Of a stretch of 35,302 nt of DNA, positions 17,156 to 35,302 are shown piece after piece. The stretch comes from Planctomycetota bacterium (lineage in GTDB: Bacteria; Planctomycetota; Phycisphaerae; Phycisphaerales; UBA1924): positions 1-35,302 of the forward strand of contig RFGK01000222.1 of assembly GCA_003697045.1 (NCBI GenBank). The letters run 5' to 3'. Each line of letters opens with the position of its first letter. The first letter of the stretch is position 1. The notes below the pieces were generated by a model, which worked only from the letters and a program-made list of their open reading frames with translations, ran no database searches and was not told the origin of the DNA. Position numbers and translations under genes: made by a program.

Positions 17156-17190
17156 ACAGATCGGGGTCTGCGGGTCGATGAAGCTGATTG

Positions 17191-18471: not shown

Positions 18472-18606
18472 GGGCTAAGTAACCGGGCGTGCGAGCGTGA
18501 AGTGGGCTCGCAGTGTGCGATTGGTCGATGCTGAGGGAGTCCCCGGCGTGCGGCCGAGGGAGGACGATCGGAGCACGGAAACTGATTGCGGCGAAAGGAC
18601 GAGGTG

Positions 18607-19116
18607 ATGGGAGAAAGGAAGATGCGGCAGAGAGTCAAGAGAGCCCGTCGGGGATTCACGCTGATTGAGGTGATGATCGTTCTGGCCATTGTGCTCGCGT
18701 TGGGGGCAATCGTGAGCGTGGCGGTGCTCTCGCGGAGAGATGACGCGAACATCAGCCTGTGCAAGACGGATCTGACGAACCTCGAGAAGGGGCTCAAGTG
18801 GTTTTACTTTGAGTACAACCGCTACCCGACGGACGAGGAAGGGCTCGCGGTCTTGTGGAGCCCGGACACGCTTGACCCCGAGCTCGATCCGACGAAGTGG
18901 AAGCCTCAGCTCGAAAAGCCCCTCCCCAAGGACCGGTGGGGCCACGAGTGGATGTACATGCAGCAGCGTGACGACGATCCGACGAAATACGCGTTGTGGT
19001 CGGTCGGACCGGACGGTGAAGACGGGACCGAAGACGACATCAAGACGTGGTCCGAAGATGAGTTGGACAGCGACTTTGGATTCGAGCCGATGGACTCGCC
19101 GGATTCCGGGGGCTGA
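18607..19116 (+). CDS. gspG: Major pseudopilin GspG
   Basis: ATG 18607 is preferred: GAGGTG lies just upstream, and an upstream TTG at 18586 is weaker. The product is 169 residues with a 16-residue basic prepilin leader ending RRG, then FTLIEVMIVLAIVLALGAIV with Glu at mature position 5. After the N-terminal helix come the GspG features NLEKGLKWFYFEYNRYPTDE and the C-terminal LPKDRWGHEWMYMQ region. The segment GPDGEDGTEDDI is the acidic calcium-binding loop typical of the major pseudopilin. The protein ends in an acidic tail (DELDSDFGFEPMD) longer than in proteobacterial GspG. After prepilin-peptidase cleavage it polymerises into the pseudopilus. No prepilin peptidase gene is in the window. 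Confidence 0.93.
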   Translation: MGERKMRQRVKRARRGFTLIEVMIVLAIVLALGAIVSVAVLSRRDDANISLCKTDLTNLEKGLKWFYFEYNRYPTDEEGLAVLWSPDTLDPELDPTKWKPQLEKPLPKDRWGHEWMYMQQRDDDPTKYALWSVGPDGEDGTEDDIKTWSEDELDSDFGFEPMDSPDSGG

Positions 19117-19165
19117 ACAACTCCTTGAAACGGCGTGCTCTGTCCTGACCGCACGGCGGCCTGGT

Positions 19166-19963
19166 GTGCGGCGTGGGCTGACGGTCTTTGAGCTCATGGT
19201 TGCCATCACGTTGATGGGGGCGCTGATTGCCATCTCCATCCCGCTTGTTCTCGATCGCACGCGGGACATTTCGTTCGATGAGACACTTGCGCAGATCGAG
19301 CGTGTGGCTTCGGTTGTCAGGGCCGATGCGCAGCGGCGCAGCGAGGCTCTGGCGTTGGAGTGCCGGTGGTCGGAAGAAGATCAACTGGTGCGGATCGGAG
19401 TGGTCAAGCTGGAGCAGAACGAGCGCGAGTCGACAGGTTCGGTGTTCGACCTGCCGTTCAATGAAGGGGTGGGAAGAGTCGATGCTTCCGTCGAGATGAT
19501 GCCGTCCTTTGACGTCATGCTCACGCTTGCGAAAGGATACGAGTTGCGCCGGAGGATTCCGGAGATGTATTTCGACCGGGCGGGGGAAGCTTTGCTGCAA
19601 ACGGAAACCACGTTCGGTGACTTGCAGCAGGACGAAATGGACCCCGTCGGATTCGACATGGATGCATCGCAGGATGATGGTTGGGGCGAGCTCGATCATC
19701 CTCCGCGCAGGCTTGTTATCGCTGTTTTTCTACCGGACGGATCGCTGATGGGCGAGGAGCGCTTGTATCTGCTCGGCCCGGGCGGGCGCGTGGGGGCGAT
19801 CACGATGAGCCGTTGGCTCGGACGGGTCCGGGCGGAGCGTGTGAATCTTTCGATGACGCCCGGCGGGGAGCTGGACGAGGCAAGCGGGGGAGGCGAGGCG
19901 TTGGGCCCGGCCCCAGAGGGTTCGGCGGGCGGAGACACATCGACGCCGGAGGATGCTCCATGA
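19166..19963 (+). CDS. gspH: Minor pseudopilin GspH (GTG start)
   Basis: The open frame extends upstream into gspG, where it is only an out-of-frame shadow. GTG 19166 is chosen because it yields the very short leader MRRG before LTVFELMVAITLMGALIAIS, identical to the leader of the next gene and with Glu at mature position 5. The product is 265 residues, long for GspH (usually under 200). The globular part has an acidic character (DLQQDEMDPVGFDMDASQDD). Two beta-strand pairs near PPRRLVIAVFLPDGSLMGEE and the C-terminal Gly/Glu/Pro-rich tail (GGELDEASGGGEALGP) are unlike typical GspH. The H assignment rests on position between G and I and on the prepilin motif rather than on the globular fold. 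The stop overlaps the gspI start as ATGA. Confidence 0.75.
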   Translation: MRRGLTVFELMVAITLMGALIAISIPLVLDRTRDISFDETLAQIERVASVVRADAQRRSEALALECRWSEEDQLVRIGVVKLEQNERESTGSVFDLPFNEGVGRVDASVEMMPSFDVMLTLAKGYELRRRIPEMYFDRAGEALLQTETTFGDLQQDEMDPVGFDMDASQDDGWGELDHPPRRLVIAVFLPDGSLMGEERLYLLGPGGRVGAITMSRWLGRVRAERVNLSMTPGGELDEASGGGEALGPAPEGSAGGDTSTPEDAP

Positions 19964-20523
19964 GGCGTGGGGGCATGCTCTTTGAAGTGATGGTCGCGCT
20001 TGCGATCTTGCTGATGGCGTCCATGACGCTCGGGGCGATCGTCATGCAGAGCGTTGGAGCCATGGATCGAACGCGCAGATCAATGCAGGCGTGCGACCTT
20101 GCGCGCTCGACGATGGCACAGATCGAAGCGGGGATTCTCGATGCGGCCAGCGTGAGCGGGCCGGTGCGCCGGTGGGATGCGTCGATGTTTCTCATGCCCG
20201 AGGACGCGTTTGCTGCGGCGGGAGGGGCCGAGCCGGTTGAAGCCTCGGCCGAGCTTCCCGGCGAGATACCGGTCGGTGTTTCGGAGAACATCGGCCCGGA
20301 ATGGTCGGTCGAGGTAGAGACGGAGCCGACCGAGTTTGACGGGTTGTGGCTCGTGACGGTGACTGCGCAACTGCAGGCTGCGCAAGCGCCTGACGTGGTG
20401 CTGGCGTCGTACACGCTTCGGCAGGTGGTGCGACTGGGCACCGAGCCGGAGGATGTGGCTGGCGAAGAAGACGAGTTGATGGATGCGGCGCGTCGTGGCC
20501 TTCAACGAGGGGGGCGTCCATGA
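19960..20523 (+). CDS. gspI: Minor pseudopilin GspI
   Basis: ATG 19960 overlaps the gspH stop (ATGA). The 187-residue product has leader MRRG and then GMLFEVMVALAILLMASMTL, with Glu at mature position 5. Beyond the helix, LARSTMAQIEAGI matches the GspI pattern of a helix with a conserved Ala/Glu stretch. A Pro/Ala/Glu-rich insertion (about residues 75-105) precedes the beta-sheet PEWSVEVETEPTEFDGLWLV. In characterised systems GspI nucleates the pseudopilus tip with J and K. The stop overlaps the start of gspJ. Confidence 0.8.
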   Translation: MRRGGMLFEVMVALAILLMASMTLGAIVMQSVGAMDRTRRSMQACDLARSTMAQIEAGILDAASVSGPVRRWDASMFLMPEDAFAAAGGAEPVEASAELPGEIPVGVSENIGPEWSVEVETEPTEFDGLWLVTVTAQLQAAQAPDVVLASYTLRQVVRLGTEPEDVAGEEDELMDAARRGLQRGGRP

Positions 20524-21245
20524 CACGGCGTGGGTTTTCTCTGCTGGAAGTCATGCTTGCCATCGGCATTGTGCTGGTGCTCTCCGGCGTGATCTATGCG
20601 TTTCTCTTCGACCTGATGGATGCGCGTGAGCGCATCGTGCGATACAGCGATCGGTCGCGCGTGGGCATCGGGATGATGGAAACGATCGAGCGCGACTTGA
20701 TGACCACGCTGGCGGGCAGTTCACGCTTTGGCGCGGGAATCAAGGGCGGATCGACCTGGCTGACCTTGCTCAGTCGCAGTGTCACGCTGCCGATTGAGAC
20801 GGATTCGCAGACGGTGCTGGGTGATTTGCAGGGGGTGAAGTTTGAGTGGCAGCCGGGCCGGGGGGAGCTGAGGGCGAGTCGATGGGACGTGCTTTCGGGT
20901 GAGACGGCGCTTTCCGAGGTCATCTCCGAGGAAATCGAGCATCTGCAAATCCGTTACTACGACGGGCGTGCGTGGCGCGGCACATTTGATTCGTCTACGA
21001 CGGGCAGGCTGCCTGTTGCTCTTGAGGTCGCGGTGTGGTTTGGTACGCCCCGGAGGCCGGCGCCGTCCGCGGGGAGCTTTGAGTCGGTTGGCTTCAGGGA
21101 TGAGCCTGGGTTCAACGAGGCGTTCGACCCGGGATCGTGGGAGCGTGAGACGACGGACGTGCAGCTGCCGACTCGTGAGCCCGACCGCGTGCGCGTGATG
21201 GTGATACCCGATGGGCCGGAGGTGGGCATGGAGGCGTCACCATGA
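20520..21245 (+). CDS. gspJ: Minor pseudopilin GspJ
   Basis: ATG 20520 overlaps the gspI stop (ATGA). The 241-residue product has leader MTRRG and FSLLEVMLAIGIVLVLSGVI, with Glu at mature position 5. The globular domain has features of GspJ: RDLMTTLAGS after the helix (usually RDLxQ), GVKFEWQPGRGELRASRWD and a strand with IEHLQIRYYDGRAWRGTFDS, then LPVALEVAVWFG. GspJ is a tip subunit partnering I and K. The C-terminus is extended by about 60 residues rich in Pro, Glu and Gly. The stop overlaps the gspK start. Confidence 0.85.
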   Translation: MTRRGFSLLEVMLAIGIVLVLSGVIYAFLFDLMDARERIVRYSDRSRVGIGMMETIERDLMTTLAGSSRFGAGIKGGSTWLTLLSRSVTLPIETDSQTVLGDLQGVKFEWQPGRGELRASRWDVLSGETALSEVISEEIEHLQIRYYDGRAWRGTFDSSTTGRLPVALEVAVWFGTPRRPAPSAGSFESVGFRDEPGFNEAFDPGSWERETTDVQLPTREPDRVRVMVIPDGPEVGMEASP

Positions 21246-22930
21246 CCACGAGCCGGCGCAGGGGCATGATGTTGCTGGCGGTGATGATCGTCATCGTCCT
21301 GGCGTCGCTGATTGGATCGACGCTGCTGGTGTCTGTTGATGCGGAGCGTTCTGCGGCCCAGACGACGCTGCGACGCACGCAATCGCGAGCGCTGGCCTGG
21401 TCGGGAGTGCAATATGTGACGGCTCAAATCGCTGCACAGCGCGAGCGGCTGCTCGAAGGGCAGGAGATTGAAGTCGATCACGAGTGGGTTTTGTATGAAG
21501 AACCAACGGGAACCAGAGCGGTGGTGCGGTTGGTGCCGATGGGGCCGAGTCGCACGCATCTGGTGTCGGAGACAGGCAAGATCGACATCAATCATGCGAG
21601 CAAGGAGATGCTGGCGAGCCTGCCGGGCATCGGAACGGAGGAGCGTGCGCAGAGGATCATTGATGCCCGGCCGTTCACGAGCGTCGAAGAGCTCGTGCGT
21701 GTCGAAGGTATTGTGGCCGACGTGCTGTACGGGTTTGTCGATGCACCCGACCCCCTTGGACCCGGGCAGTCCGGGCCGGGCGAAGCGTCGCTGTCGAGTG
21801 CAAGCGAGTCGATCGAGCCGATCCCTTCGATCGACGAGTTCGATGGCAGCCTCACCGAACCCAGCCTGATCGACCTGCTGACGGTGTTCAGTTTCGATCC
21901 GAACGTGCAGGCGGGGATCGAGAGTCCGGACAAGCGTGGCAAACTTCGGGTCAACCTCAATGTGCCGTGGTCGGACCGGTTTGAGCGGGCGATTGAAGAC
22001 CAGTGGGGCCGAGAGGCCGTAGCCGTCGTCAAGCAGCTCTTTGACTCCGGCATGCAGTTTCGCAGCGATCGCGAGCTGATCGAGAATGTGAGAAGGATGG
22101 GGATCGAGGACGTCGAGATCATTCGACAGATTGTTGATGCAGTCACGACGACGGACGACATGTATCGGCTCGGCCGCGTGGACATCCTGCGTGCGTCTGC
22201 GGCAGCACTGGCGGCACTTCCGGGGATCGACGCGACGCTTGCGGAGGAGATCATTGATCTGCGCGATCGACTTTCTGATGAAGCTCGCCTGTCGCCGATG
22301 TGGCTTGTCGATGAAGGTCTGATCACATTGGATGAGTACCTTGAGCTTGCTGATCTGGTGACGACCCGATCGATGCAATGGCGTGTGCGGATCGAAGCAG
22401 GATTTCAGGAACCCGCGGCGTATGCGAGCCAGCCGCCGGGCGTGGGTGAGTCTGTCCTCGAGGGTCTGGCCGAGTTAATGGCCGAGGAAGCGCCCCTGCG
22501 TGACCGGGTGGTCTACGACGTTGTAGTCGATGTGTCATCGGAGCGTCCGCGTGTGGCGTACATGCGGGAGGTGACGATGCTTGATCTTGCCCAGCGATTG
22601 CGCCAGGCCGATGTGGATGAACGCATTTCGCAAGATCAGCGTGCATTCGAAGAGGCGCTGTGGGCGGAGATGGGGCTGGACGAGCTGATGAGCGAGGAAT
22701 CGCCGCTTGCGGGGCAAGCCGAGGATGTGCGTCTTGCAGATGGACCTTCCTGGCGTTCGGGGTCGCGCATCGACCAGCGTCGAGCGGATCGAGCGAATCG
22801 GTCGACCGAACGTTTGCAAGCTCGTCGCTCGAGGCTGCAGGAGGTGCCGCAAGCAGAACCAGAGCCGACGATGCCGGGCGACCCGGTCGATCGGCGGATC
22901 GGGCGCTGGCGTGCTGGAGGTGAGCGGTGA
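21242..22930 (+). CDS. gspK: Pseudopilus tip protein GspK, with two helix-hairpin-helix segments
   Basis: ATG 21242 overlaps the gspJ stop (ATGA). The 562-residue product has leader MTTSRRRG followed by MMLLAVMIVIVLASLIGSTL. As is usual for GspK, mature position 5 is not Glu but Ala. Two helix-hairpin-helix motifs are evident: DINHASKEMLASLPGIGTEE (about residue 114 on) and VDILRASAAALAALPGIDAT (about 312 on), corresponding to the SAM-like T2SSK regions. The protein is well above the usual length of about 320-350. The extra length lies in a Ser/Glu/Pro-rich linker (about 175-205), a second alpha-helical region and a Glu/Arg-rich C-terminus (about 490-562). GspK caps the pseudopilus. The stop overlaps the next start as GTGA. 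Confidence 0.85.
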   Translation: MTTSRRRGMMLLAVMIVIVLASLIGSTLLVSVDAERSAAQTTLRRTQSRALAWSGVQYVTAQIAAQRERLLEGQEIEVDHEWVLYEEPTGTRAVVRLVPMGPSRTHLVSETGKIDINHASKEMLASLPGIGTEERAQRIIDARPFTSVEELVRVEGIVADVLYGFVDAPDPLGPGQSGPGEASLSSASESIEPIPSIDEFDGSLTEPSLIDLLTVFSFDPNVQAGIESPDKRGKLRVNLNVPWSDRFERAIEDQWGREAVAVVKQLFDSGMQFRSDRELIENVRRMGIEDVEIIRQIVDAVTTTDDMYRLGRVDILRASAAALAALPGIDATLAEEIIDLRDRLSDEARLSPMWLVDEGLITLDEYLELADLVTTRSMQWRVRIEAGFQEPAAYASQPPGVGESVLEGLAELMAEEAPLRDRVVYDVVVDVSSERPRVAYMREVTMLDLAQRLRQADVDERISQDQRAFEEALWAEMGLDELMSEESPLAGQAEDVRLADGPSWRSGSRIDQRRADRANRSTERLQARRSRLQEVPQAEPEPTMPGDPVDRRIGRWRAGGER

Positions 22931-24519
22931 ACGTAGAGCCTACGGGCGGCATGGTGCTGATTGACCTGGCTCAGGACGTGCTGGCTGCGGCGGCGGTCAA
23001 TGTGAGCGCGCGCGGGATGACGGTCAATCGAGTGGCGTTGGCATCGCGCCCGAATGAAGTTGAAGCCGATGCACCCGATCAGGTTGGACAATGGGTCCGC
23101 CACTCGCTCGATGATGCGGGGATTTCAACGCGCCGGGCGGTCTTTGCGGTTCCGCGTGCCGAGGTGGTGCTCAAGGTGCTCGAGCTTCCCACGGCGGGGA
23201 TTGAAAGCGAGGCCGAGCTGTGCCAGGCAGTCCGGCTGCAGATGACGCGGCAACTGACGATGCCGATCGACGAGTCGATCATTGATTCGGTCACGCTTCC
23301 TGCGCGGGGCGATGATCGGATGACCTGCGTGCTGGCGGGAGCGATTCATCGCGATCGAGTTGAGTGGTATCGGCAGGTTGCGCGCGCCGCGGGGTTGAAA
23401 ATCGCAGGCGTGCGTCTGCGCAGTGGCGGTATTGCCCGTCTGGCGGGCGGGGCGGATGGGCCTGTGCTTGCCATTGCTTCGGGTGCGGAAACGACGGATT
23501 TTGTGGTGGCCGAGCATGGGCGTGTGCTCTTTGCCCGCTCGGTGGAGTTGCAGCATGCCACGCCGGAGCTGTCGCTGCCATTGTTGCGTGATGAAGGGGG
23601 TGGAGATCAGGAGCAGGATCTTCTGCAACGTGTGGCTGTTGAAGCCAAGCGCACGTGGATGAGCTATCGCGTCTCCCAGCGGGCCGAGGATGTGCGGTCG
23701 ATTGTCGTGATGGGACAGGGTGAGACAGCCCAGCAGTTGTGCGAGCGATGCCAGGCGATGCTCGAACTTGAGGCTCACTGCGTCGAGCTGCCGGCGTCGT
23801 TGCGGATCAAGCCGAGCCTGAGTGACGAGACACTCGGGACGTTTTTGCCGCTGCTGGGTCTCGGTGTGCGGCTGGAAGATGGCTCGAAGGGGCTAGATTT
23901 TCTGAATCCAAGACGACCGCCGGACGTGGGCGCCCGTCGAAGGCAGCTGGCACTTGCCGGCATGTTTGCGTTGGTCGTTCTGGGTGGGGCCGGGTACTTG
24001 TTTGGGCAGAATGTGATCGGACAGCTTGAGGCCGAGCTGAGCGTCAAGCAGACCCGGGAGCGCGAGCTTTTTGAGGAATACGTTGCCTATCTGAAGGAGC
24101 GGGCCCGGGCCGAGCACGTGCAGCGATGGGACGCGATCGACGCCGATTACATCGGGCACCTTGCCTGGCTGACCGGGCGATTGCCTGATCCGAAGATTTC
24201 GCTTGCCGACCGGGTTGACATGACGCTCGTGGGCGAGGTTCGGTATGAAGGGAGAAGCTTTCCCGAGGGGCGATGGTCAAGTGTGAGCAGGCTGGCGGTG
24301 GACGTGTCGGGCAAGGTGAGCGATCGATCGATTGCCCTCGAGCTTCGTGAGCGTCTGTTGGAGACGGGCCTGTTTACCGTGGTCAATCGTGGTCCCGACG
24401 TTGCTGACCGGTACGACTTCGAGCTGACAACGCAGTACCTTTCGCCGGACGATGCGATACGCGAAACGGATTCGGTCGACGCGGGTGCGACGGCCTCGGA
24501 GGAGGAGACAACGCCTTGA
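22927..24519 (+). CDS. gspL: GspL/PilM-like actin-fold assembly protein with membrane segment
   Basis: GTG 22927 overlaps the gspK stop (GTGA). The 530-residue product has an N-terminal actin-like domain (about residues 8-325): a MVLIDLAQDVLAAAAVNV phosphate-1-like strand, AVFAVPRAEVVLKVLELPTA as in PilM/GspL, and GPVLAIASGAETTDFVVAEH at the second subdomain. One transmembrane helix follows at about 341-360 (LALAGMFALVVLGGAGYLFG), then a short coiled coil. The periplasmic alpha/beta domain (about 400-510) resembles the ferredoxin-like PilN/GspL C-terminus. It would recruit GspE on the cytoplasmic side and contact the GspM-like protein in the periplasm. It is longer than typical GspL (about 400), and its cytoplasmic half looks closer to PilM, effectively a PilM-PilN fusion. 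Confidence 0.78.
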   Translation: MNVEPTGGMVLIDLAQDVLAAAAVNVSARGMTVNRVALASRPNEVEADAPDQVGQWVRHSLDDAGISTRRAVFAVPRAEVVLKVLELPTAGIESEAELCQAVRLQMTRQLTMPIDESIIDSVTLPARGDDRMTCVLAGAIHRDRVEWYRQVARAAGLKIAGVRLRSGGIARLAGGADGPVLAIASGAETTDFVVAEHGRVLFARSVELQHATPELSLPLLRDEGGGDQEQDLLQRVAVEAKRTWMSYRVSQRAEDVRSIVVMGQGETAQQLCERCQAMLELEAHCVELPASLRIKPSLSDETLGTFLPLLGLGVRLEDGSKGLDFLNPRRPPDVGARRRQLALAGMFALVVLGGAGYLFGQNVIGQLEAELSVKQTRERELFEEYVAYLKERARAEHVQRWDAIDADYIGHLAWLTGRLPDPKISLADRVDMTLVGEVRYEGRSFPEGRWSSVSRLAVDVSGKVSDRSIALELRERLLETGLFTVVNRGPDVADRYDFELTTQYLSPDDAIRETDSVDAGATASEEETTP

Positions 24520-25583
24520 AGCTGTCTCCATTCAAACTCGCGACGGGGCTGATTGCGGCGTTGGGCGTCGTGGGAGTGGGATACGCCGTGATCAACTCGG
24601 CCTATCTCAAGCCCGCAGCCAGGCTGCGCGACCAGATCGCAGGCATGGATGCGACGTATGAGCGTGCGTCGCGGGTGATGGAGGATTGGCCGAAGTATCG
24701 CGGCCAGCTCAGAGACTTTGGGCGCACACTGATCGGCAGCGAGTTTGATCAGGTCGAGCATCGGCTGCGCACGAGTCTGCAAGCCATCGGCGAACAATCC
24801 GGGCTTCGAGGTGTGCAGGTGAGCAACGGCCGACCGAAGGCGGAGCGAACGCCTCTGGCGACGGCCCGGCTTCGAGGCTCGCTGGGGCGCAAGCTCGCCG
24901 AATCCACCGACTTTGGGATCATCAAGGGAGCATTCAAGGGCGTTGGAACCCTCGAACAGGTGGTTCAGGCGATGGCAGTGTTGCAGGTTCAGCCCTGGCT
25001 TCACCGGATTGACCGGGTATCGATTGCGCCGCGTGGGCGTGAGAGGGTGAACTTCGAGCTCGATGTGGCGTTTTCGGTGATGTTTGCTCCGGATTTGTGC
25101 CCTGCCGAGGCGGGGATGCCGGCAATCGTCGAACCGGGTGAAGACGTACTCACGAAGGTGCGGGCGATTGCTGCGCGGAATGTGTTTGTGGCGCCCCCGC
25201 CGGACAAGCCGGACGAGCCGCCGGTGGTTGAACCGGAACGGGAGGAAGTGGCGCCGCCTCCGCCGCCGCCTCCGTACGACCGGTGGAAAGTGACGGGGCT
25301 GGTCGAGCGGCGTGTGGAAGGAACGACGGTGAGCGTCGAAGCGTGGGTGCTCAATCTTGACAGCGGGGAACGTCGCATTCTGACGCCCGGGGATGAGATC
25401 CTGGGGCATGTGCTCGAGTGGGTCGACGGAGAGCGTGGATATTTCGTTTTCGAGGGGAGAAGGGTCGTGATCGCCCAGGGGCAGACACTGGCCGACCGCG
25501 TGCCCGCAGATCCGGTAAACTCTCCGGAGTCGGATGGAAGCAACCAGCCGGCATCCGGAGCCACGGCGGGTGAAGGAGAATGA
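24516..25583 (+). CDS. GspM/PilO-like inner-membrane protein with GspC/PilP-like C-terminal domain
   Basis: The start is TTG 24516, overlapping the gspL stop (TTGA). The next in-frame start would remove the membrane anchor. The 355-residue product has a single N-terminal helix (about residues 8-26, LATGLIAALGVVGVGYAVIN), a short coiled coil and an alpha/beta domain (about 75-195, with VVQAMAVLQVQPWLHRIDRV) resembling the GspM/PilO ferredoxin-like fold. A Pro-rich stretch with seven consecutive prolines (about 225-253) follows. The last domain (about 255-335, RWKVTGLVERRVEGTTVSVE) has the strand pattern and the TPGDEILGHVLEWV loop of a GspC homology region or PilP domain, which docks on secretin N0. 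The window contains no separate gspC, so this fusion may supply that function. Domain calls are from pattern, not from a search. Confidence 0.65.
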   Translation: MKLSPFKLATGLIAALGVVGVGYAVINSAYLKPAARLRDQIAGMDATYERASRVMEDWPKYRGQLRDFGRTLIGSEFDQVEHRLRTSLQAIGEQSGLRGVQVSNGRPKAERTPLATARLRGSLGRKLAESTDFGIIKGAFKGVGTLEQVVQAMAVLQVQPWLHRIDRVSIAPRGRERVNFELDVAFSVMFAPDLCPAEAGMPAIVEPGEDVLTKVRAIAARNVFVAPPPDKPDEPPVVEPEREEVAPPPPPPPYDRWKVTGLVERRVEGTTVSVEAWVLNLDSGERRILTPGDEILGHVLEWVDGERGYFVFEGRRVVIAQGQTLADRVPADPVNSPESDGSNQPASGATAGEGE

Positions 25584-25585
25584 CC

Positions 25586-28500
25586 ATGGACCGCATCGAC
25601 GGCGGAAGTTCGAAGGTCAGGGTGGCAGTCGCAGCGACGTTGATTGCCTCGGCGGGTTTGGCGGTATCGGCGGCGTTGGGTCAGACCAGCCCGCAGCCGG
25701 CCGCTTCAGAGCAGCCCGCGGAACCCAGCGGGGAAGTTCGCATCAGGTTCAACTTCGATGGCGTCGCATTCGACCAGGTGCTCGATTTCTTTGCGCGCGA
25801 AACGAACCTTCCGGTCATCCGCGAGGCGGCCGTTCCCAACGGCACGCTCAAGTTCATCAGCGCGCGCGACTTTGCACTCGGTGAGGCGATTGAGGTTTTC
25901 AACTACAGCCTGCGCGCGCACGGCGTGCGGCTGGTGCATGAGGGAGATTTCCTGTATCTGAGATCGCTGGATGGCGTGGCTGCCGACGCCAGGCCGGTCA
26001 ATCCGGATGATCTTGCAGCCGTGATCGATCAGGATGCTTCGGCATTTGTGACGACGTACATCCCGCTGAACAACGCCATGGCCGAGACCGTGGTCGAGCA
26101 GATCAAGCCGTTGATCCGTCCGCCGGGTCTGGTGCAGGCGATCAGTCGCCAGAACATGCTGATTCTGGTCGAAACGGCCGCACAGTGCCAGCGGATTTAC
26201 GAGATCATCACGCAGATCGACCAGGTGCGTCCGGCCGACATCGGCTTCGAGGTTTTCCCGGTTCGATACACCACGTCACAAAAGCTGGTCACAACGCTCA
26301 AGGGGTTGGTGCCGGAGCGTGACCAGATCATGGTCACGGACAAGAACGGCAAGGCTTCCATCATTGAGGATGTGAGCAAGCCCCCGCTGAGATTGACCGC
26401 CGATGATCGGATCAACTCGGTGATTGCGGTCGGTCCGACGGCCCGGCTGCCGGTGGTGCAGGAGCTGATCGCGCTGCTCGATTCGCCGGAGGGTGGCTCG
26501 GCGGGGTCGGGGGTGGGCGGCCCGCAGATGAAGGCCTTTGAAGTCGTGGGCGTGACGCCGGGTGCGGCTGCCGAGCAGATTCGCTCGCTGTTCGCAGCCC
26601 TTCCTGATGCGCGCAAGCCGACGGTGCAGCCTCTGGACGATGTGTCGCGTGTCATGGTGGTCGGGACGCCCGAGCAGCTGGTTCAGACCAAGGCGCTGCT
26701 CGAGGTGATCGATCCGACGGCAGACGGGCAGACCCGGCTCGACCGGGCCGCCCGGGTAATCGAGGTTGAGCACCTTCGCCCCGAGCAGGCGATGCAGATC
26801 GCCCAGCGGCTGCTGACTGTGCGGCAGAACCGAATGCTCAGCTACGCGCCCGCACCGAGCGGGAAGGGGTTGATTGTCGCGGGGCCTTCGGCAGATGTGG
26901 ACGCGCTGGAACAGTTGATCGAGGGGATCGACGTCAAGCCTGAAACCAGGCAGGAAGTGCGCGTGGTGACGATCAGCTCGGGAGATGTCGAGCAGGTCAT
27001 CGCCAAGGCGCGTGAGCTGGATGAGCTGACCGACGAGGCTGTGGATGATCCGGTGCGGAGCATTGTCGATGCGGACGCCCGCACGGTGACGCTTGTCGGA
27101 TCAAGCAGCGGGCTTGCTCGATTCGAACAGCGGATTCGTTCGGCCGAGCGGTCGATAGTTGTCGAGCGTGAGTCGAGGACGTACACCGTTGAGAATGTCA
27201 GGCCTACGGAGTTGAGTTCGAGGCTGTCGCGTCTGCTCCGCCCGATGCTGGAGCCGGAAGATGGCACGCCTTACGTTTCTCCGACGATTGAGCCGCTGGA
27301 CGAGCTGGACAAGCTGATCGTGCGGGCGTTGCCCGAGCAGTTTTCGACCATCGAGGGGCTGATCGAGCAGCTCGATGAGGAGCGTCCGGGTGAGAGACAA
27401 CTGCAGGTGATGTCGCTGCGGGGTCCGAACCCCGAGCAGTTGGTGGAGCGTGCGCTGGAGCTGTACGCGGCACAGACCGCAGGCATGGACGAGACCGAGG
27501 CCGGTCCGATCGAGTACGAGATCGACAAGCAGGCGGGCAAGCTGCTGGTGCAGGGGCGCAGCAATGCGCTGCGGCTGTTCGGCTCGGCGCTGCAACAGGC
27601 GCAGCAGCTCATGCCGCCGGTGCGGACGACGAGGCTGATCGAGATTGAGAATGGCGATGCGTCGGAGCTGTTGGAGCCGCTCAACGAGTTTCTCGCATCT
27701 GCCGATTCGATTGATCCGGCGCGAGAAGTGCCTGCGCCGACGATCAGTGTTGTGGAGCGGACGAACTCGCTGATGGTGACAGCTGAGGATGCTCAGCATC
27801 GGCTCATTGCCGACTATGTCAAACGGCTTGATCGGATTGAGCAGTCGGATCTGCCGCCGCTCAAGCTGCTTCAGTTGCGTACAGCGGATGCGCAGAACAT
27901 TGCTTCGATGCTCACGACGCAGTACGCCAAGCGTCCGCCCGCGGAGCGGATGTCCAAGCCGGTGGAGATTCGTGCCGATGCCAACACGAACACGCTGATC
28001 GTGGCGGCACACTCGGAGCTGTTTGATGAGATCAAGGCGTTTGTCGATGAGTTGAACAAGGAGGAATCGGACAAGCCGGAACGGATCACATTCCTTTTCC
28101 CGCTCAAGGTCGCCAAGGCGATCGACGTGGCTCAGGCGATGGACAAGCTGTATCCACAACCTCCGATGCCGGCCGATCGGTACGGACGTCCGATGCCCTG
28201 GTTGCAGGAACCGAAGGAAGTGACGGTTTCGGCCGATCCATCGAGCAACTCGTTGATCATCGACGCTCCTGCGGATCGTGAGGACTCATTGCGCGAGCTG
28301 GCCGAGAAGCTTGACCGCGTCGAGGTGCCTCCGGTAGCCGAGCTGCGGACGTACCACGTGGTCAATGCCGATCTGAACTCGGTGGCGAGAATGCTGCAAG
28401 GGCTGAGCCGGAACGGCTCACTGAGCAGCCCGGCATCGTCCGGTCGTCCAAAGGTTCCGGTCGTGATCGAGACTGAGCCTCGCAGCTCGACCCTGATTGT

Positions 28501-31500
28501 TGCCGGCGACGAAGTGACTTTTGAAAAGGTCGAGCAGGTGTTGACGAGCCTGACCGCGGTGCCGGTTGAGCGTGGCCTGCGGATCGTTCCGATTTCCAAC
28601 GCCGACGCGGCGGAGGTGCGCGATCGTGCGCTGGTGATTTACAACGCGCAGATCGCACAGATCCCGGACGCCAATCCGGTGGATGTCACGGTCGATGAGA
28701 AGTCGAACTCTCTGGAGGTTGTCGCCGACGCCGAGGCGATGGCCCGGTTCATGAAGATTCTCGACGAGCTGCAACGACAGATCGGCCCGGCGCGCGAGGT
28801 GCGGATGATCGAGCTGCGCCTTGCCAAGGTGAGCGAGGTGATCGGGTTCCTTGAGGAGCTTGTCGCAGCGAGTGAGTCGCTCAAGCTCACGGGAGGGCCG
28901 GACCCGGTCTTTGAGCCGATCGAGACGACCAACTCGATCATGGTTGCTGCGCAGCCGATGCAGTTTGCCATCATTGAGCAGCTCGTGAGGAGTCTCGACA
29001 ACCAGCAGGTGGCCGAGCGGCCGCCGTTGCGGATCATGAAGCTGCGATCGACCGATGCGGCCAACCTGGCGTCGGTGCTGACGCGTTCGTATCAGCAACG
29101 TCCGGCCGATGAGCGAGCCAAGAAGCCGGTGGATATTCAGGCAGACGCGGCAACGAACACACTGATCGTCTCGGCTCATGCGGACGTGATGCCCGAGATC
29201 GAGGCGATCGTGAATGAGTTGAACGAGTCAACGTCTTACGACGAGTCGGACCGGCAGATTCGGATCTTTCCGCTGAAGATCGCGCGTGCAGAGGAGCTTG
29301 CGCGGACGATTGACGAGATGTACCCGGAGCCGCCGATGCCGCGGGATTCGCGGGGCAATCCGCGCCCGGATCTTCAGCAGCCGAAGGAAATTTTTGTTCG
29401 TGCCGATCGTGCGACAAACTCGCTGATTGTTGATGCGCCGACGGAACGGCTTGCCGGGTTTGAACAGATCGTCAATCAGCTCGATCAGGCACAGCTTTCC
29501 GATGACGTTGAGCTTCGTACCTATCGCGTCGAGCGTGCGGACCTGGCAGCCGTGCAGGCGACGCTGCGCAGCCTGGCCGACAACGGAGCACTGTCGAGCA
29601 ATGTGCAATCACCGATTACGATCAGCACGGAGCCTGCCAGTCGCACGCTTGTGGTGAGTGGGCCGTCGGAGATTTTCGATCGCGTTGAGTCCGTTCTGCG
29701 GGAAGTGGATGGGCAGTACGCCCGCCCGGCGACGACGCTGAAGATGTATCCGCTCGAACATGCGCGGGCGGATCGACTCAAGGCAGTGATCGAGCAGATG
29801 CTCTCTGCGCGGCTGCGCGAGCGCCAGCGCGAAGAAGGCACGGCAGCGATCGACATTGATGAGTTGCTCGAGATTGCAGCGGATCCGGGCTCAAATACGT
29901 TGATCATCTCGGCGCCGGACGAGTTGCAGGAGGCGGCTCAGCAGTTGATCGAAGTGCTCGATACCGAGGCGTCGGCGCTCGGTCGCTCGACCGTTCGCGT
30001 TGTGCCCTTGACCTACGCCGAAGCTTCGCAAGTGGCCCAGACGCTCAACCAGGCGTTGCCAAGCATGGAGCTTCCAAGCGGGGAAGGCGTGCAGATCCTG
30101 CCGGCGGCAAGTTCAAACGCGCTGCTGCTGGCCGGGGCGGATGCTGATCTGAAGAAGATCGAAACGCTCATCGAGCCACTCGATCGACAGCCGTTCGATC
30201 CTGAAAAACCCGATGTTCAGACCTTCCCGCTTGAGCATGCGGATGCAGCCACGATTGCAAAGACGGTCGAGCGGCTGCTGGTTGAACAGCAGCAGACCGA
30301 CCCGCGCATTCTGATGTTACAGATGCGGGCGAGGAACTATCGGTATGTTGAGCCGCCGAAGATTCGCGTGGAAGCCGAGCCGCGGACGAACAGTCTGATC
30401 GTCTCGGGTCCAACCGCGACGATCGAACTTGCGCGGGCGATGATCGAGCGTCTTGACCAGCCGGCTGAAGATCCGGGTCGGACCACGGTCACGTTTACTC
30501 CGGCCAATGCCGATCCGTCACAACTGGCGGCGACGGCATCGAGGCTGATGCAGGCAGTGCTTCCACAGGGAAGGCACCCGCTTGAGATTGCCGCTGAGCC
30601 GACATCAGGGGCGGTGATTGTGATCGGTCAGCCTGATGAGGTTTCGCAGGCTGTGCAAAAGCTCGCGGAGATCGACGAGCGGACGCCTTCGCTGCCCATG
30701 GTCGATGTCAAGTCGTTCGAGCTTTCGCACGCAGCGGCGACGGGGGTGGCGGCTGCGGCTCGTACGATGCTCAGTGACCAGACCCGTTGGCCGGAAAGCA
30801 TGATCCGGGCTCAAAAGGCGGGGCTTCGCCTGCCGGCCGTGTCGGTCAGCGCGGATGCAGCGACGAATCGACTTCTGGTGAGCGTGGCCTCGCCGCTCAT
30901 GCCTTTGGCCGAGCAGGTTATCGCTGCGCTTGATCAACCAAGACAGAGCGGCTCAGTCGAGGTCAAGGTATTCCGGCTTGAAAAAGGGGAAGCTGAATCG
31001 GTCGCAGCCGCGTTGCAGCAGGCATTGCGGGCTGGGCAAGAGCCTGGTGAGATTGCTCCGAGCGTGACGGCCGAGGCGGCGAGCAACTCGGTGGTGGTGG
31101 CTGCCACGTCTGACAGACTGGCTCAGGCGGGTGAGTTGATCGAAGCAATGGACGAGGCGGTTGAACCGGCGGGTGTCGGCGTGCGGACGGTCTACCTCGA
31201 ACACGCCCAAGCCGAAGCGATTGCGCCACTGGTGCAGCAGATCATTGAACGCAAGGACCCGCTTGCAGAAACGGACCCGCGCTCGCGTCCGTTTCTCATG
31301 CGTGATCTGCTGCGATCAGGCGTGAGGGTGGACGAGACTCCCGTGCGGGTTGTGGCCGAACCGAGGCTCAATGCGCTGGTCATCAGCGCGCCGGCATCGG
31401 TGCTGGAACTGGCCGAGCAGGTCATACGCGGGCTGGATGTCGAGCGGGGGCCTGGTGGCCCCAGTGGCGGCCGTGTGGTGCGCGTCATCACGCTCGAAAA

Positions 31501-34500
31501 CGCCGACGTAGGGCAGTTGAGCGAAAGTATCGGCGAGTTGTTCGAGTCGGACGAGGCGGGCAATGTCCCGCCGATCGTGCGCGTCGATATTCAGAGCAAC
31601 TCGCTGATCGTCCGCGGGACGAGTGAGCAGATTGCGTCGATCGAAGCGCTTGTGAGTGAACTTGACGCTGCAACGCTCAGCTCGTCGCGGCAGCTCCGCA
31701 TGATTCCGATCGATCGCTCCCGGGCCGATGCCCAGCTGATGGCGCGCACCCTGCAACGCATGCTGGAGCAACAAGGGGGAGTCAAGGTCGAAATCATCTC
31801 GGCTGAGGAGCTGCTCGAACGGCGCGAAAAGGAAGAGGACGACAGCAGCGACGCGGGGTTTGGTATCCCCCGATTTCATGGGATCGGCCCGTGGGTGATC
31901 AGTCACGCAATCGCCAGCGTGCAAGACGCACCGCAAGGTCAAGCCGACGAAGAGCCTGAAGTTGTCATTGCCGTCGATCCGGACACCAACTCGCTGCTGG
32001 TGGTGGGTGCGCCGCGGATGACCGACCGGGTGGCGGCCCTGGTCAAAGAGCTCGAACAACAAATGCCCGCCGAGCCGACCGGCGTGCGCATCGTCACGCT
32101 TCCATCAACTGCGGACGCGAGCAACGTTGCAAGCATCGTCACGCAAACCGTGCGTGAAGTCGGTCGGGCAAGCCCAACCAATCCGGGCGGGTTCACGGGA
32201 ACCGTCTCGGTGCGTCCAGACACGATCGGCAACGCCGTGATCGTCTGGGCAAATGACACGGATTTTGAGTCTGTTTCGGAGATCATCGCGGGCGTGTCAC
32301 GCCTGGCGAGCACGATCGAACTGACGGTCAAGGTGTACCCGTTGGAGAATGTCTCGGCAAGGCAAGCCGTCGCCTCGTTGCGCGATCTTTTCAGCACATC
32401 GCCGCGGGGGCGTCAGGCGCAGCAACTTCTCGAAATGACGCTGCGCAGTCCCGGGGGGGAGGCAATCCGCGCCAAAATCGATCCCAGGCAGACAAGTTTG
32501 GTGGCCGATCCGAGCGACAGCGCGCTGATCGTTGCCGGCACCGATGAAACCATCGATCTGGTTGACCGTTTCATCGGGATGCTCGACCAAAGCCCGGTGA
32601 CCAATCGCATGGCGATTGTCCAGTACAAGCTCGCAAGCGCACAGGCAGCCCAGCTTGCCGGGACGTTTCAACAGCTCTTCGACGCCCAGCGCAGCGGCGC
32701 CGGACGCAATGCTTCAAGCATTCCGCGGGCCCGCTTTGTGGCCGATCAGCGAACCAACAGCCTGCTCGTGACCGCGACCAGCGAACAGCACAACGAAGTT
32801 GCGCGTCTTCTCGCTTCGGCGGACATGCAGATGGACGACGAGGACGTCGTGTTCGAGATCATTCCGCTCAAGAACGCATCACCCGTCGCGGTTCGGCGCA
32901 TCGTCGAGCAGGTCGTTGTCGGACGCGATCCGGCATTGCGCGAGCGGATCCAGATTTCGGCCGAAGATGCGTCTCGTTTGTTTGTTGTCAAGGCACCGCG
33001 CGATGACATGGAGCGGATCAAGAGCATCGTGGCACAAGTTGACGATGTTGAAATCGGGAGTTTCCCGATCCGCTCGATCAAGCTGAAGACGGCCAACGCA
33101 CTGGAAGTGGCGGGGCAGTTGCAGCAGTTTTTCCGCGAGCGAGGCTCGATCTCAGGCAGGAGAGGGCCGCAGAGTGGGGGGGCTGCGATTGTCGGAGACG
33201 AGCGCAGCGGGACCCTCATCGTCTCGGCGTCGGACAGAGATTTCGAGCAAATTGCGTCAATGGTGGAGCTGTTCGACGTACCGGCCGAGAGCCGACAGCT
33301 GCAATACCACGTGGTTCATCTGAAGAACGCCCGTGTGTCTGATATTCAAACCACTGTGCAAAACCTGGCCTGGGAGCTGCAGGTTGAGCGGTTGGGAGGC
33401 TGGTGGGGCAACGCGCGTCGATCAAGCGCCTCAACGGGAACCCTGATCGTGGAAACCAATGAGCGCACCAACAGCGTGCTGGTGTTCGGTCAGGGAGAAT
33501 CGGTCGACACAATCCTGCAAATCATCGATGAGCTTGATCGTCCGCAGGCCGAGGCGACGCAGCTTGAAGTCCGGGCGGTCAAGGCCGAGGGCGCCGATCT
33601 GAACGCGCTGGCCCAGATGATCGAGCAGGCCACTGCCACGCCGGGTTGGCGCAGCTGGCAGGGGCGCGATCCTGATGCGGTGAGTGTTGAGGTGGACGGG
33701 GAGCGCGGGCTGCTGATTCTCGTCGGCGACAAGGCGCGGGTGGACCTTGCCGAGGGGTACATCAAGCAGATCGCCGAGGCCGGAGTCGAGTCGGGCCGGT
33801 CGATCAAGTCGGTCAAGTTGCAGTATGCCGACGCCTTTGGTGCAGCGCAGAGCCTTTCTCGCTTCTTTCAGGCTCGTGCACGGGCGCAGGGCTTGCGGGA
33901 AACAAGCGTGACGGTGACCGGATCGCGTGATGGGAATGTGCTGCTGGTCTCGGGCGATGAGGATCAGTTGGCCATGGTGGACGAGCTGATTGCCCAGATT
34001 GATCAGCCGGAGCTGGGGGATGACCGCGAGATCGAGTTGATCGGAGTCAAGCACATCGACCCTGCCGAAGCCGTCCGCACGGTGCAGCAGATGTTCCCCT
34101 CGCGTCGCGGGGACGAACAGGTGATTGTCAGTGCGCAGCCGTCGCAAAGCTCGGTGCTCGTCTCGGCCCGCGGGGAAGACATGGAAAAGGTCCGCCAGCT
34201 CCTGGCGCAGATCGACACGCTTCCTTCAAATGAATCGGCCCGTATTGTCACTGTTCCGCTCAAGTCGGCTCGTGCGGCCGATGTTGCCGATACGCTCAGC
34301 AGCGCCCTGCCGGAGGGCGTGCGTGTGCAGATCACACCGATGGAACGGACCAATGCGATCATGCTCACCGGCTCGGAGGAGGCCATCGAGCTGGTTCGTG
34401 AACAGATCGAAAGCCTTGATGTGGAGACGGTTCAGTCTCCGGTGCAGTTTCGCCGCTTTGAGATCAAGCACCAGGCAGCGTCGGACATGGCCTTTACGAT

Positions 34501-35302
34501 CCGCACGATGATGCGCGGCCGTCCGCGTTCTCCCGGTACACCGGAGCCGAACTTCGATCCGCTGTATGAGGACAACGTGCTCGCCGTGACGGCGAGTGCG
34601 GACGAGATGCCGTTCATCGAGCAGATCATCAAGGAGATTGATACTCCCAAAGCCTCGGCGCGGAAAACGCAGTTCGTCAAGCTGCGGTTTGCCCCGGCTG
34701 CGTCGACTGCTGAGGCGCTCAAGGTGTTTTACGGTCGGCTTGCGCCCGAGGCTGTGACTCCGGCCGAGCGCGATGTGACCATCGTGCCCGACCCGGCAAC
34801 CAACTCCCTGGTCATTAGTGCTGACGAATCGGTGTGGGAAGGCATCGAAAGCCTGCTTGAACAGCTTGATACCGAGGAATACGACACGTCGCAGCAGCTT
34901 GTCGTGATTCCACTTCAGCACGCCGATGCACGCAGCGTGGCTCAGGCGCTCAATGAAGGTCTGCGTGCACCGCTGGAAGATCAGCTTCGACGCGAGCAGC
35001 TCCGGCTGCGTGAGGAATCACGCCGCCGAGGAAACCAGGGCGTGGATACCTATGAGCCGACGGTGCTCGTGTCGAGCGAGGGGACACCCACGGTTTCGGC
35101 CGAAGTGCAGACCAACTCGCTGATTGTCTTTGCGGGCCGCAAGGAGCTTGAACGAATCGAAGCCATCGTCAAGCAGCTCGACGTACCCGACTTTTTGCGG
35201 CTACCCGAGCCGCGTGTGATTCCGCTTGCGAGCGGGCGTGCGTCGAACATTGCGCGGGCGGTCCAACAGGCATTCGCCCAGCAGGGTACGCGACAGGGCG
35301 GC
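25586..35302 (+). CDS. gspD: Giant secretin GspD-like protein with about 38 tandem N1-type domains (5' part, runs off window)
   Basis: AAGGAG at 25573-25578 lies seven bases before ATG 25586 (a second ATG at 25580 is too close to it). The frame is open for 3,239 codons to the right edge. A signal peptide (VAVAATLIASAGLAVSAALG) is followed by an N0 domain at about residues 52-123 (FNFDGVAFDQVLDFFARETN). From about residue 153 onward the protein is an unbroken series of secretin N1-type domains of about 80 residues. Each ends in a strand-helix signature such as RTNSLIVSGPTATIELARAM or ATNTLIVSAHADVMPEIEAI, then LD. I count 38 signatures and the start of a 39th; ordinary GspD has three. No secretin pore or S-domain appears in the window, and I found only one cysteine. 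Position after G-M and the overlapping operon structure support GspD. A non-pore scaffold made only of N domains is the alternative. Confidence 0.85.
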   Translation, partial: MDRIDGGSSKVRVAVAATLIASAGLAVSAALGQTSPQPAASEQPAEPSGEVRIRFNFDGVAFDQVLDFFARETNLPVIREAAVPNGTLKFISARDFALGEAIEVFNYSLRAHGVRLVHEGDFLYLRSLDGVAADARPVNPDDLAAVIDQDASAFVTTYIPLNNAMAETVVEQIKPLIRPPGLVQAISRQNMLILVETAAQCQRIYEIITQIDQVRPADIGFEVFPVRYTTSQKLVTTLKGLVPERDQIMVTDKNGKASIIEDVSKPPLRLTADDRINSVIAVGPTARLPVVQELIALLDSPEGGSAGSGVGGPQMKAFEVVGVTPGAAAEQIRSLFAALPDARKPTVQPLDDVSRVMVVGTPEQLVQTKALLEVIDPTADGQTRLDRAARVIEVEHLRPEQAMQIAQRLLTVRQNRMLSYAPAPSGKGLIVAGPSADVDALEQLIEGIDVKPETRQEVRVVTISSGDVEQVIAKARELDELTDEAVDDPVRSIVDADARTVTLVGSSSGLARFEQRIRSAERSIVVERESRTYTVENVRPTELSSRLSRLLRPMLEPEDGTPYVSPTIEPLDELDKLIVRALPEQFSTIEGLIEQLDEERPGERQLQVMSLRGPNPEQLVERALELYAAQTAGMDETEAGPIEYEIDKQAGKLLVQGRSNALRLFGSALQQAQQLMPPVRTTRLIEIENGDASELLEPLNEFLASADSIDPAREVPAPTISVVERTNSLMVTAEDAQHRLIADYVKRLDRIEQSDLPPLKLLQLRTADAQNIASMLTTQYAKRPPAERMSKPVEIRADANTNTLIVAAHSELFDEIKAFVDELNKEESDKPERITFLFPLKVAKAIDVAQAMDKLYPQPPMPADRYGRPMPWLQEPKEVTVSADPSSNSLIIDAPADREDSLRELAEKLDRVEVPPVAELRTYHVVNADLNSVARMLQGLSRNGSLSSPASSGRPKVPVVIETEPRSSTLIVAGDEVTFEKVEQVLTSLTAVPVERGLRIVPISNADAAEVRDRALVIYNAQIAQIPDANPVDVTVDEKSNSLEVVADAEAMARFMKILDELQRQIGPAREVRMIELRLAKVSEVIGFLEELVAASESLKLTGGPDPVFEPIETTNSIMVAAQPMQFAIIEQLVRSLDNQQVAERPPLRIMKLRSTDAANLASVLTRSYQQRPADERAKKPVDIQADAATNTLIVSAHADVMPEIEAIVNELNESTSYDESDRQIRIFPLKIARAEELARTIDEMYPEPPMPRDSRGNPRPDLQQPKEIFVRADRATNSLIVDAPTERLAGFEQIVNQLDQAQLSDDVELRTYRVERADLAAVQATLRSLADNGALSSNVQSPITISTEPASRTLVVSGPSEIFDRVESVLREVDGQYARPATTLKMYPLEHARADRLKAVIEQMLSARLRERQREEGTAAIDIDELLEIAADPGSNTLIISAPDELQEAAQQLIEVLDTEASALGRSTVRVVPLTYAEASQVAQTLNQALPSMELPSGEGVQILPAASSNALLLAGADADLKKIETLIEPLDRQPFDPEKPDVQTFPLEHADAATIAKTVERLLVEQQQTDPRILMLQMRARNYRYVEPPKIRVEAEPRTNSLIVSGPTATIELARAMIERLDQPAEDPGRTTVTFTPANADPSQLAATASRLMQAVLPQGRHPLEIAAEPTSGAVIVIGQPDEVSQAVQKLAEIDERTPSLPMVDVKSFELSHAAATGVAAAARTMLSDQTRWPESMIRAQKAGLRLPAVSVSADAATNRLLVSVASPLMPLAEQVIAALDQPRQSGSVEVKVFRLEKGEAESVAAALQQALRAGQEPGEIAPSVTAEAASNSVVVAATSDRLAQAGELIEAMDEAVEPAGVGVRTVYLEHAQAEAIAPLVQQIIERKDPLAETDPRSRPFLMRDLLRSGVRVDETPVRVVAEPRLNALVISAPASVLELAEQVIRGLDVERGPGGPSGGRVVRVITLENADVGQLSESIGELFESDEAGNVPPIVRVDIQSNSLIVRGTSEQIASIEALVSELDAATLSSSRQLRMIPIDRSRADAQLMARTLQRMLEQQGGVKVEIISAEELLERREKEEDDSSDAGFGIPRFHGIGPWVISHAIASVQDAPQGQADEEPEVVIAVDPDTNSLLVVGAPRMTDRVAALVKELEQQMPAEPTGVRIVTLPSTADASNVASIVTQTVREVGRASPTNPGGFTGTVSVRPDTIGNAVIVWANDTDFESVSEIIAGVSRLASTIELTVKVYPLENVSARQAVASLRDLFSTSPRGRQAQQLLEMTLRSPGGEAIRAKIDPRQTSLVADPSDSALIVAGTDETIDLVDRFIGMLDQSPVTNRMAIVQYKLASAQAAQLAGTFQQLFDAQRSGAGRNASSIPRARFVADQRTNSLLVTATSEQHNEVARLLASADMQMDDEDVVFEIIPLKNASPVAVRRIVEQVVVGRDPALRERIQISAEDASRLFVVKAPRDDMERIKSIVAQVDDVEIGSFPIRSIKLKTANALEVAGQLQQFFRERGSISGRRGPQSGGAAIVGDERSGTLIVSASDRDFEQIASMVELFDVPAESRQLQYHVVHLKNARVSDIQTTVQNLAWELQVERLGGWWGNARRSSASTGTLIVETNERTNSVLVFGQGESVDTILQIIDELDRPQAEATQLEVRAVKAEGADLNALAQMIEQATATPGWRSWQGRDPDAVSVEVDGERGLLILVGDKARVDLAEGYIKQIAEAGVESGRSIKSVKLQYADAFGAAQSLSRFFQARARAQGLRETSVTVTGSRDGNVLLVSGDEDQLAMVDELIAQIDQPELGDDREIELIGVKHIDPAEAVRTVQQMFPSRRGDEQVIVSAQPSQSSVLVSARGEDMEKVRQLLAQIDTLPSNESARIVTVPLKSARAADVADTLSSALPEGVRVQITPMERTNAIMLTGSEEAIELVREQIESLDVETVQSPVQFRRFEIKHQAASDMAFTIRTMMRGRPRSPGTPEPNFDPLYEDNVLAVTASADEMPFIEQIIKEIDTPKASARKTQFVKLRFAPAASTAEALKVFYGRLAPEAVTPAERDVTIVPDPATNSLVISADESVWEGIESLLEQLDTEEYDTSQQLVVIPLQHADARSVAQALNEGLRAPLEDQLRREQLRLREESRRRGNQGVDTYEPTVLVSSEGTPTVSAEVQTNSLIVFAGRKELERIEAIVKQLDVPDFLRLPEPRVIPLASGRASNIARAVQQAFAQQGTRQGG
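26042..35302 (+). repeat. Tandem array of about 38 secretin N1-type domain repeats inside gspD
   Basis: Each unit encodes about 80 residues: a first half with a strand and helix (pattern xxxFPLKxAxAxExAxxxxxM), a variable-length loop, and a second half with a [TS]N[ST]L[IV][VI] strand and an amphipathic helix ending in LD. Units diverge strongly from each other in both DNA and protein, so the array is old and not a recent slippage expansion. Loop lengths vary; the largest insertion is at about 31792-31962. The array continues past the window edge. Confidence 0.85.
27170..30703 (+). repeat. Five-domain super-repeat, about 1,170 bp, three consecutive copies
   Basis: The motif E-x-R-T-Y that opens one kind of N domain recurs at 27170, 28340 and 29510, exactly 1,170 bases (390 codons) apart each time. 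Other anchors agree for copies 1 and 2: the FPLK proline at 28100 and 29270 (1,170 apart) and the Asp of R-T-A-D/R-S-T-D at 27887 and 29054 (1,167 apart). Each copy contains five different N domains in the same order, with matching loop peculiarities such as the PQPPMP/PEPPMP loop. Copy 3 is about 1,194 bases and more diverged. The unit was therefore duplicated as a block of five domains. Confidence 0.7.

Follow-up and report, generated by a model that had tools for sequence, protein, structure and literature searches.

Does a gspD-like reading frame that is still open at the end of its contig encode a true secretin, and what could such a protein do with dozens of N domains? Ordinary GspD proteins of the type II secretion system (T2SS) carry N0 and three N1-type domains before the pore, and known secretins have three to six ring-type domains. 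The window, i.e., the whole stretch of 35,302 nucleotides that was analysed, is an entire contig (G000:C231) of a 2.83 Mb genome in 292 contigs, and the frame's lack of an end is therefore the contig break.

Reading frame, domain array, and missing C-terminus

The giant gspD (25580..35302, + strand) has no stop codon up to the contig end and comprises 3,241 codons from the ATG at 25580, which are the 5′ part of an open frame of ~4,584 codons; the remainder was located on contig C146 of the same genome. The likely start is the ATG at 25586, whose spacing to the AAGGAG Shine-Dalgarno sequence is better than that of the ATG at 25580, and from there the 3,239 open codons reported in the earlier note were confirmed as real up to the contig end. 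The ATG at 25580 overlaps the stop codon of the preceding gene (the GspM-HR partner described below), and because of this overlap and the Shine-Dalgarno sequence the giant gspD was regarded as translationally coupled.

The product begins with a Sec-type signal peptide region (AVAATLIASAGLAVSAALGQ; 25586..25690, +), which was read by eye in the sequence. The following N0 domain (25751..25945, +) matched PF21305 at an E-value of 0.0015, i.e., under the Pfam curated cut-off, and the N0 block is conserved in the alignment of orthologues (A5); searched as a profile against the PDB, it yielded PilQ N0 as its sole match, a weak one (E 0.018). The N1-type array (26057..35302, +), supported by profiles and fold, contains exactly the 38 complete domains that had been counted by eye, plus a 39th truncated by the contig end. 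These counts were obtained with an iterated profile; PF03958 alone recovers fewer copies (at least 34 in the window frame). Domains 8–12 and 13–17 (27632..29965, +) form a tandem block duplication, in which domains 8–11 pair with 13–16, and this block is lost in shorter giants. Domain 25 (31697..32059, +) contains a long disordered insertion, in which a short hydrophobic stretch resembles a signal peptide, and is the site at which the array is split in genus g54. In domains 17–25 of the window protein, neighbours were seen to alternate in similarity and length, as if rings were paired.

The C-terminus, proposed to be sought beyond the contig with PF00263 and PF03958, was found on contig C146, which opens mid-frame with a 537-codon 5′-open frame encoding half an N domain, two whole N domains, the PF00263 pore (E 4e-46), and a tail. 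The window frame aligns with that of a congener (G001) over residues 5–3241 at 79% identity with 5 gap positions, and the C146 piece aligns with residues 4048–4584 of the same 4,584-codon frame at 85%. Since both thus align to successive parts of the G001 frame, they are, judged by alignment, one gene of ~4,584 codons with ~806 residues in the assembly gap of ~2.4 kb. Two congeners (G001 and G002) have the gene intact, with open frames of 4,584 and 4,594 codons, respectively, each with N0, exactly 50 N domains, and the pore; the G001 protein has ~497 kDa from the likely start and a single cysteine. An assembly or annotation artefact, i.e., collapsed or mis-joined repeats, was rejected as having next to no probability and is refuted for the relatives: although the gene is split over two contigs in the source genome, the window gene has no DNA-level tandem repeats, which argues against repeat collapse, end-to-end orthologues, including that of G001, come from dozens of independent assemblies, dN/dS is well below 1, and intact copies in single-contig genomes (G265, G128, G421) show none of the stop codons or assembly errors that had been named as a possible flaw inside the array.

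The gsp operon and the identity of the giant protein

The earlier note had placed the gene in a translationally coupled gsp operon, and E, F, G, minor pseudopilins, K, L, and M were indeed found in the window. A divergent gspE ATPase gene (13868..15550, −; PF00437 E 7e-131, MshEN) is followed by gspF (17188..18387, +; PF00482 E 1e-52), the major pseudopilin gene gspG (18586..19116, +; PF08334 E 5e-20), two minor pseudopilin genes that were recognised by sequence only, one gspH-like (RRGLTVFELMVAITLMGAL; 19113..19963, +; start approximate) and one gspI-like (prepilin start MRRGGMLFEVMVALAILL; 19960..20523, +; no Pfam match above cut-off), gspJ (20520..21245, +; PF11612, N_methyl), gspK (21242..22930, +; PF03934 E 2e-5, HHH_3), a gspL/PilM-like gene (22927..24519, +; PF11104 E 7e-12), the partner gene (24516..25583, +), and the giant. 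This order is kept in G001 for the genes called there.

The partner is a fusion of a GspM/PilO-like part, a proline-rich linker, and an HR domain of the GspC/PilP type, and is the predicted inner-membrane partner of N0. Its structural model consists of a membrane helix, a coiled coil, the PilO/GspM domain, the linker, and the HR domain. The model matched PilO (2rjz) with Z 11.6 and an rmsd of 2.1 over 97 residues, and its HR domain matched the GspC chain of the GspC–GspD crystal (3oss_C) with Z 8.4 and an rmsd of 1.8 over 61 of 65 residues, followed by PilP (2lc4, Z 7.2) and 6hcg_e (Z 5.6). A sequence profile of the HR domain found no match in the PDB, i.e., the domain is visible by fold only. 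HR-type domains of GspC and PilP bind the secretin N0. The partner gene adjoins most giants; in G046 it lies apart on the same contig and in G060 on another contig. Among 40 genomes, strong partner matches occurred only in giant-bearing ones, the best E-value in the other 34 being 2.6e-5.

Domains 28–33 (32615..34024, +) were modelled with 57 orthologues, resulting in six beta-alpha-beta-beta-alpha units at pLDDT 83; this was a single-chain model (pTM 0.39), which fixes neither inter-domain orientation nor ring formation. Its best PDB matches were EpsD/ExeD/GspD at E-values of ~1e-9, and it matched XcpQ N012 with Z 11.4. The same beta-alpha-beta-beta-alpha topology was reported for N1–N5 of PilQ (PMC5745081).

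The protein is almost certainly a T2SS GspD whose stalk is greatly enlarged. The PF00263 pore, on C146 as well as in all complete giants, upholds the proposed GspD-type secretin with a C-terminal pore, and is joined by PF03958 N1-type domains, N0, and the gsp operon; with 31–56 N1-type domains in place of three, the family departs in number, not in kind. PilQ secretins are marked by AMIN domains and a PilMNOP operon. The first 400 residues of the giant contain no AMIN domain, the neighbours resemble PilM/PilO as well as GspL/GspM, and GspG, GspJ, and GspK are of T2SS type. Like the T2SS secretins EpsD, ExeD, PulD, and XcpQ, the giant has N0, N1-type domains, a C-terminal pore, a gsp operon, and an HR-type inner-membrane partner; unlike these, it has 31–56 instead of three N1-type domains, reaches ~497 kDa per chain (congener), and its partner fuses the GspM and HR domains in one protein.

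A giant periplasmic or surface scaffold, or an adhesin, that merely borrows N domains would account for size and repeat number, in which the protein resembles giant adhesins such as SiiE (53 Ig domains, 595 kDa; PMC5466336), and poreless N-domain arrays do occur elsewhere in Planctomycetota. SiiE is, however, built of another domain type, secreted by a T1SS, poreless, and extracellular, whereas a secretin pore terminates every complete giant and the gene sits in a gsp operon beside its HR partner. This explanation was therefore rejected as largely refuted and is very improbable, in agreement with the earlier judgement that a stray adhesin was unlikely.

Distribution, domain number, and origin of the family

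Besides Planctomycetota, the survey covered control genomes and the 80 best loci of a search for relatives. The named relatives among these 80 loci belong to Planctomycetota, order Phycisphaerales, consistent with the planctomycete host that had been suggested. Within this order, the array was present in 114 of 251 genomes and 64 of 128 genera, mostly in frames of 3,500–5,086 codons. The viral contigs searched yielded no relative, and the plasmids searched gave no match for gspL. Phycisphaerales giants also occur in public records labelled as cyanobacterium (RHKP01, QWIH01) and Vicinamibacteraceae (WYBR01), and these labels appear to be wrong (L074, L112, L135). The giant lies in three frames at L132/L064 (G051, PNC21) and L110 (PNC22), due to sequencing indels or decay.

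N-domain numbers in 68 complete giants ranged from 31 to 56, with exactly 50 as the mode (25 of 68). Between genera, each domain has its counterpart at the same position of the array (46–50 of 50 reciprocal best hits), and shorter giants mostly lack whole blocks, e.g., domains 18–21 or 8–12; by sequence comparison, the array grew and shrank in blocks. A strict ruler with one fixed domain number was rejected, as counts vary in blocks between 31 and 56, though 50 is the mode. Conservation is uneven, with domains 10 and 15 at ~71% versus ~36–38% in others, and similarity along the array has a period of 2 (p ~0.003). Overall dN/dS among near relatives was 0.08–0.14, and between G001 and G002 it was 0.03–0.12 in every 400-codon bin. 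Purifying selection, as estimated from these codon comparisons, acts along the entire array.

In a tree of the pore, a single clade (95/96) unites the giants and also contains one five-domain copy of 833 codons from G060. The clade neighbours ordinary GspDs of 741–873 aa in which three N domains were detected (G044, G048, G056, etc.); the G056 secretin (773 aa) has N0, three N domains, and the pore, and adjoins a gspM-type gene. The simplest reading of the tree is that the giants arose by growth of an ordinary GspD. The arrays of families f5 and f6 (G060, G041) group with the rest by pore, but their domains are difficult to align in order (4 and 8 reciprocal best hits); these families may possibly have grown their arrays separately. 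G060 encodes both a 4,234-codon giant (G060:C296, L030) and the 833-codon secretin with five N domains (G060:C34, L060), whose pore falls in the giant clade.

The source genome also encodes secretins of ordinary length, one of 871 aa (STN plus one N domain) and one of 824 aa (N0 plus four N domains). These ordinary secretins (L194, L195; contigs C177, C197) differ in surroundings: the 871 aa protein is encoded beside TPR and pseudopilin genes, and the 824 aa protein has no recognised gsp genes nearby. Poreless arrays of N0 and N domains were observed in other planctomycete classes (L157, G296:C48, 3,265 codons; L158, G165:C1, 2,701 codons). They share with the giant N0 and 20–27 detected N-type domains, and differ from it in lacking a secretin pore on the polypeptide and in lying outside Phycisphaerales. 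The G296 array gene precedes gspE, gspF, and pseudopilin genes. Within ~9–10 kb downstream, a pore was not found.

In genus g54 (G058, G338, G395; L244, L242, L243), the array is encoded by two genes, with the break inside domain 25. The first gene encodes N0 plus 17–20 domains and terminates within domain 25, and the second encodes the remaining half of domain 25 and has the pore at its end; both halves start signal-peptide-like. The two genes of G338 share an ATGA, in which the start codon of the second overlaps the stop codon of the first, and GGAGGA precedes this start. Both halves are under purifying selection (dN ~0.19–0.24, dS 0.61–0.80). Hence, the array need not be a single chain, and it must reassemble. 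In intact giants, the domain 25 insertion was often seen by eye to carry a short hydrophobic stretch; AxA-Q often comes next, and the insertion resembles an internal signal sequence in this respect. In 53 of 72 giants the position of the insertion could be identified. A simple signal rule matched within it in only 11 of 72, i.e., 11 of 107 matches came from what is estimated as 1.6% of array residues, and in only 10 giants did it contain the array's most hydrophobic 15-mer. For the giants in general, this pattern is at most suggestive of a signal peptide within domain 25.

Possible arrangements of the N domains

We consider it somewhat more likely than not that most of the rings form one long tube. 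The secretin stalk would have grown from N0 and three N1-type domains to N0 and ~50, and the giant protomers would assemble like other secretins. At the inner membrane, N0 would be docked to the HR domain of the neighbouring GspM-HR protein, the pore would sit in the outer membrane, and the N domains would be stacked as coaxial rings. The resulting periplasmic tube of ~51 rings would take cargo and pseudopilus across a periplasm that is wide or invaginated. XcpQ N012 forms three rings of 80 Å height (PMC5646246), and Thermus PilQ reaches a length of 350 Å with its cap and six rings (PMC5745081). At ~27–38 Å per ring, extrapolated from these two, 51 rings would measure ~140–190 nm, and we infer that all domains would lie in one coaxial tube of roughly this length. 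Like the giant, Thermus thermophilus PilQ (N0–N5, 13-mer) has extra N1-type domains, and its stack spans a wide periplasm (PMC5745081); unlike the giant, it is a type IV pilus secretin, and its six rings, called unusual and among the largest characterised (PMC5745081), are eight- to nine-fold fewer than those predicted here. Paired rings have been described in PilQ (PMC5745081), and the period-2 similarity of the array, which recalls them, was counted for a stack over a string.

Several observations were counted against the tube or limit it. Domain number varies between 31 and 56 within one order, so its length would not be strictly fixed, and the poreless arrays in Planctomycetia-type genomes imply that arrays can exist outside a secretin chain. 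A pseudopilus of ~150 nm is not known from a T2SS. The 824 and 871 aa secretins of the source genome would be too short for a uniformly 150 nm periplasm, which argues against a simple wide periplasm. The Planctomycetia studied have a convoluted periplasm that is enlarged in places, and tight contact sites of inner and outer membrane (PMC5394234); with such local variation, giant and ordinary secretins could act at different sites. A described Phycisphaerae isolate is without crateriform structures (PMC8882080).

The same variation of periplasm width within one cell (PMC5394234) would suit a flexible tether, in which the pore and a few near rings would act as a normal secretin and most N domains would be beads-on-a-string arms reaching an inner-membrane platform at variable distance. 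Short linkers join the domains, the AlphaFold2 (AF2) model does not define how they are oriented to each other (pTM 0.39), and isolated XcpQ N domains are dimers or dodecamers (PMC5646246). However, a spacer would need neither purifying selection that is uniform nor fixed positions of its domains nor an order of period 2, and the two polypeptides of g54, cut inside domain 25, would leave such a tether severed, whereas a ring stack could be built from two chains, which favours an assembled stack. We regard the tether as unlikely. Still less probable is a substrate-holding or gating chamber, in which successive rings would hold, fold, or meter cargo and length would provide volume rather than bridge membrane distance. 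It would fit that every position has its own conserved identity and that some domains, i.e., 10 and 15, are far more conserved than others, but a structural stack whose ring contacts differ by position would predict the same data.

For the long tube, a more detailed version is put forward tentatively, as possible rather than probable: ~51 rings and 140–190 nm, with 50 rings in many genera, and domain 25, the middle ring with its signal-peptide-like stretch, as a built-in joint, at which two exported chains would meet in one genus and which may be cut by signal peptidase elsewhere.

Earlier reports on giant or planctomycete secretins were not found in the open-licence literature searched. Secretin stalks are thought to match the width of the periplasm that they cross. 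Planctomycetes have an enlarged periplasm with macromolecule traffic via unknown machines (PMC5394234). A family with 31–56 N domains would rank among the longest bacterial trans-envelope channels, and the giant would tell the width of the working periplasm in Phycisphaerales. Its natural length series (31, 36, 39, 46, 50, 53, 56), together with the split version, would provide a test of how ring stacks are assembled and how their length is set.
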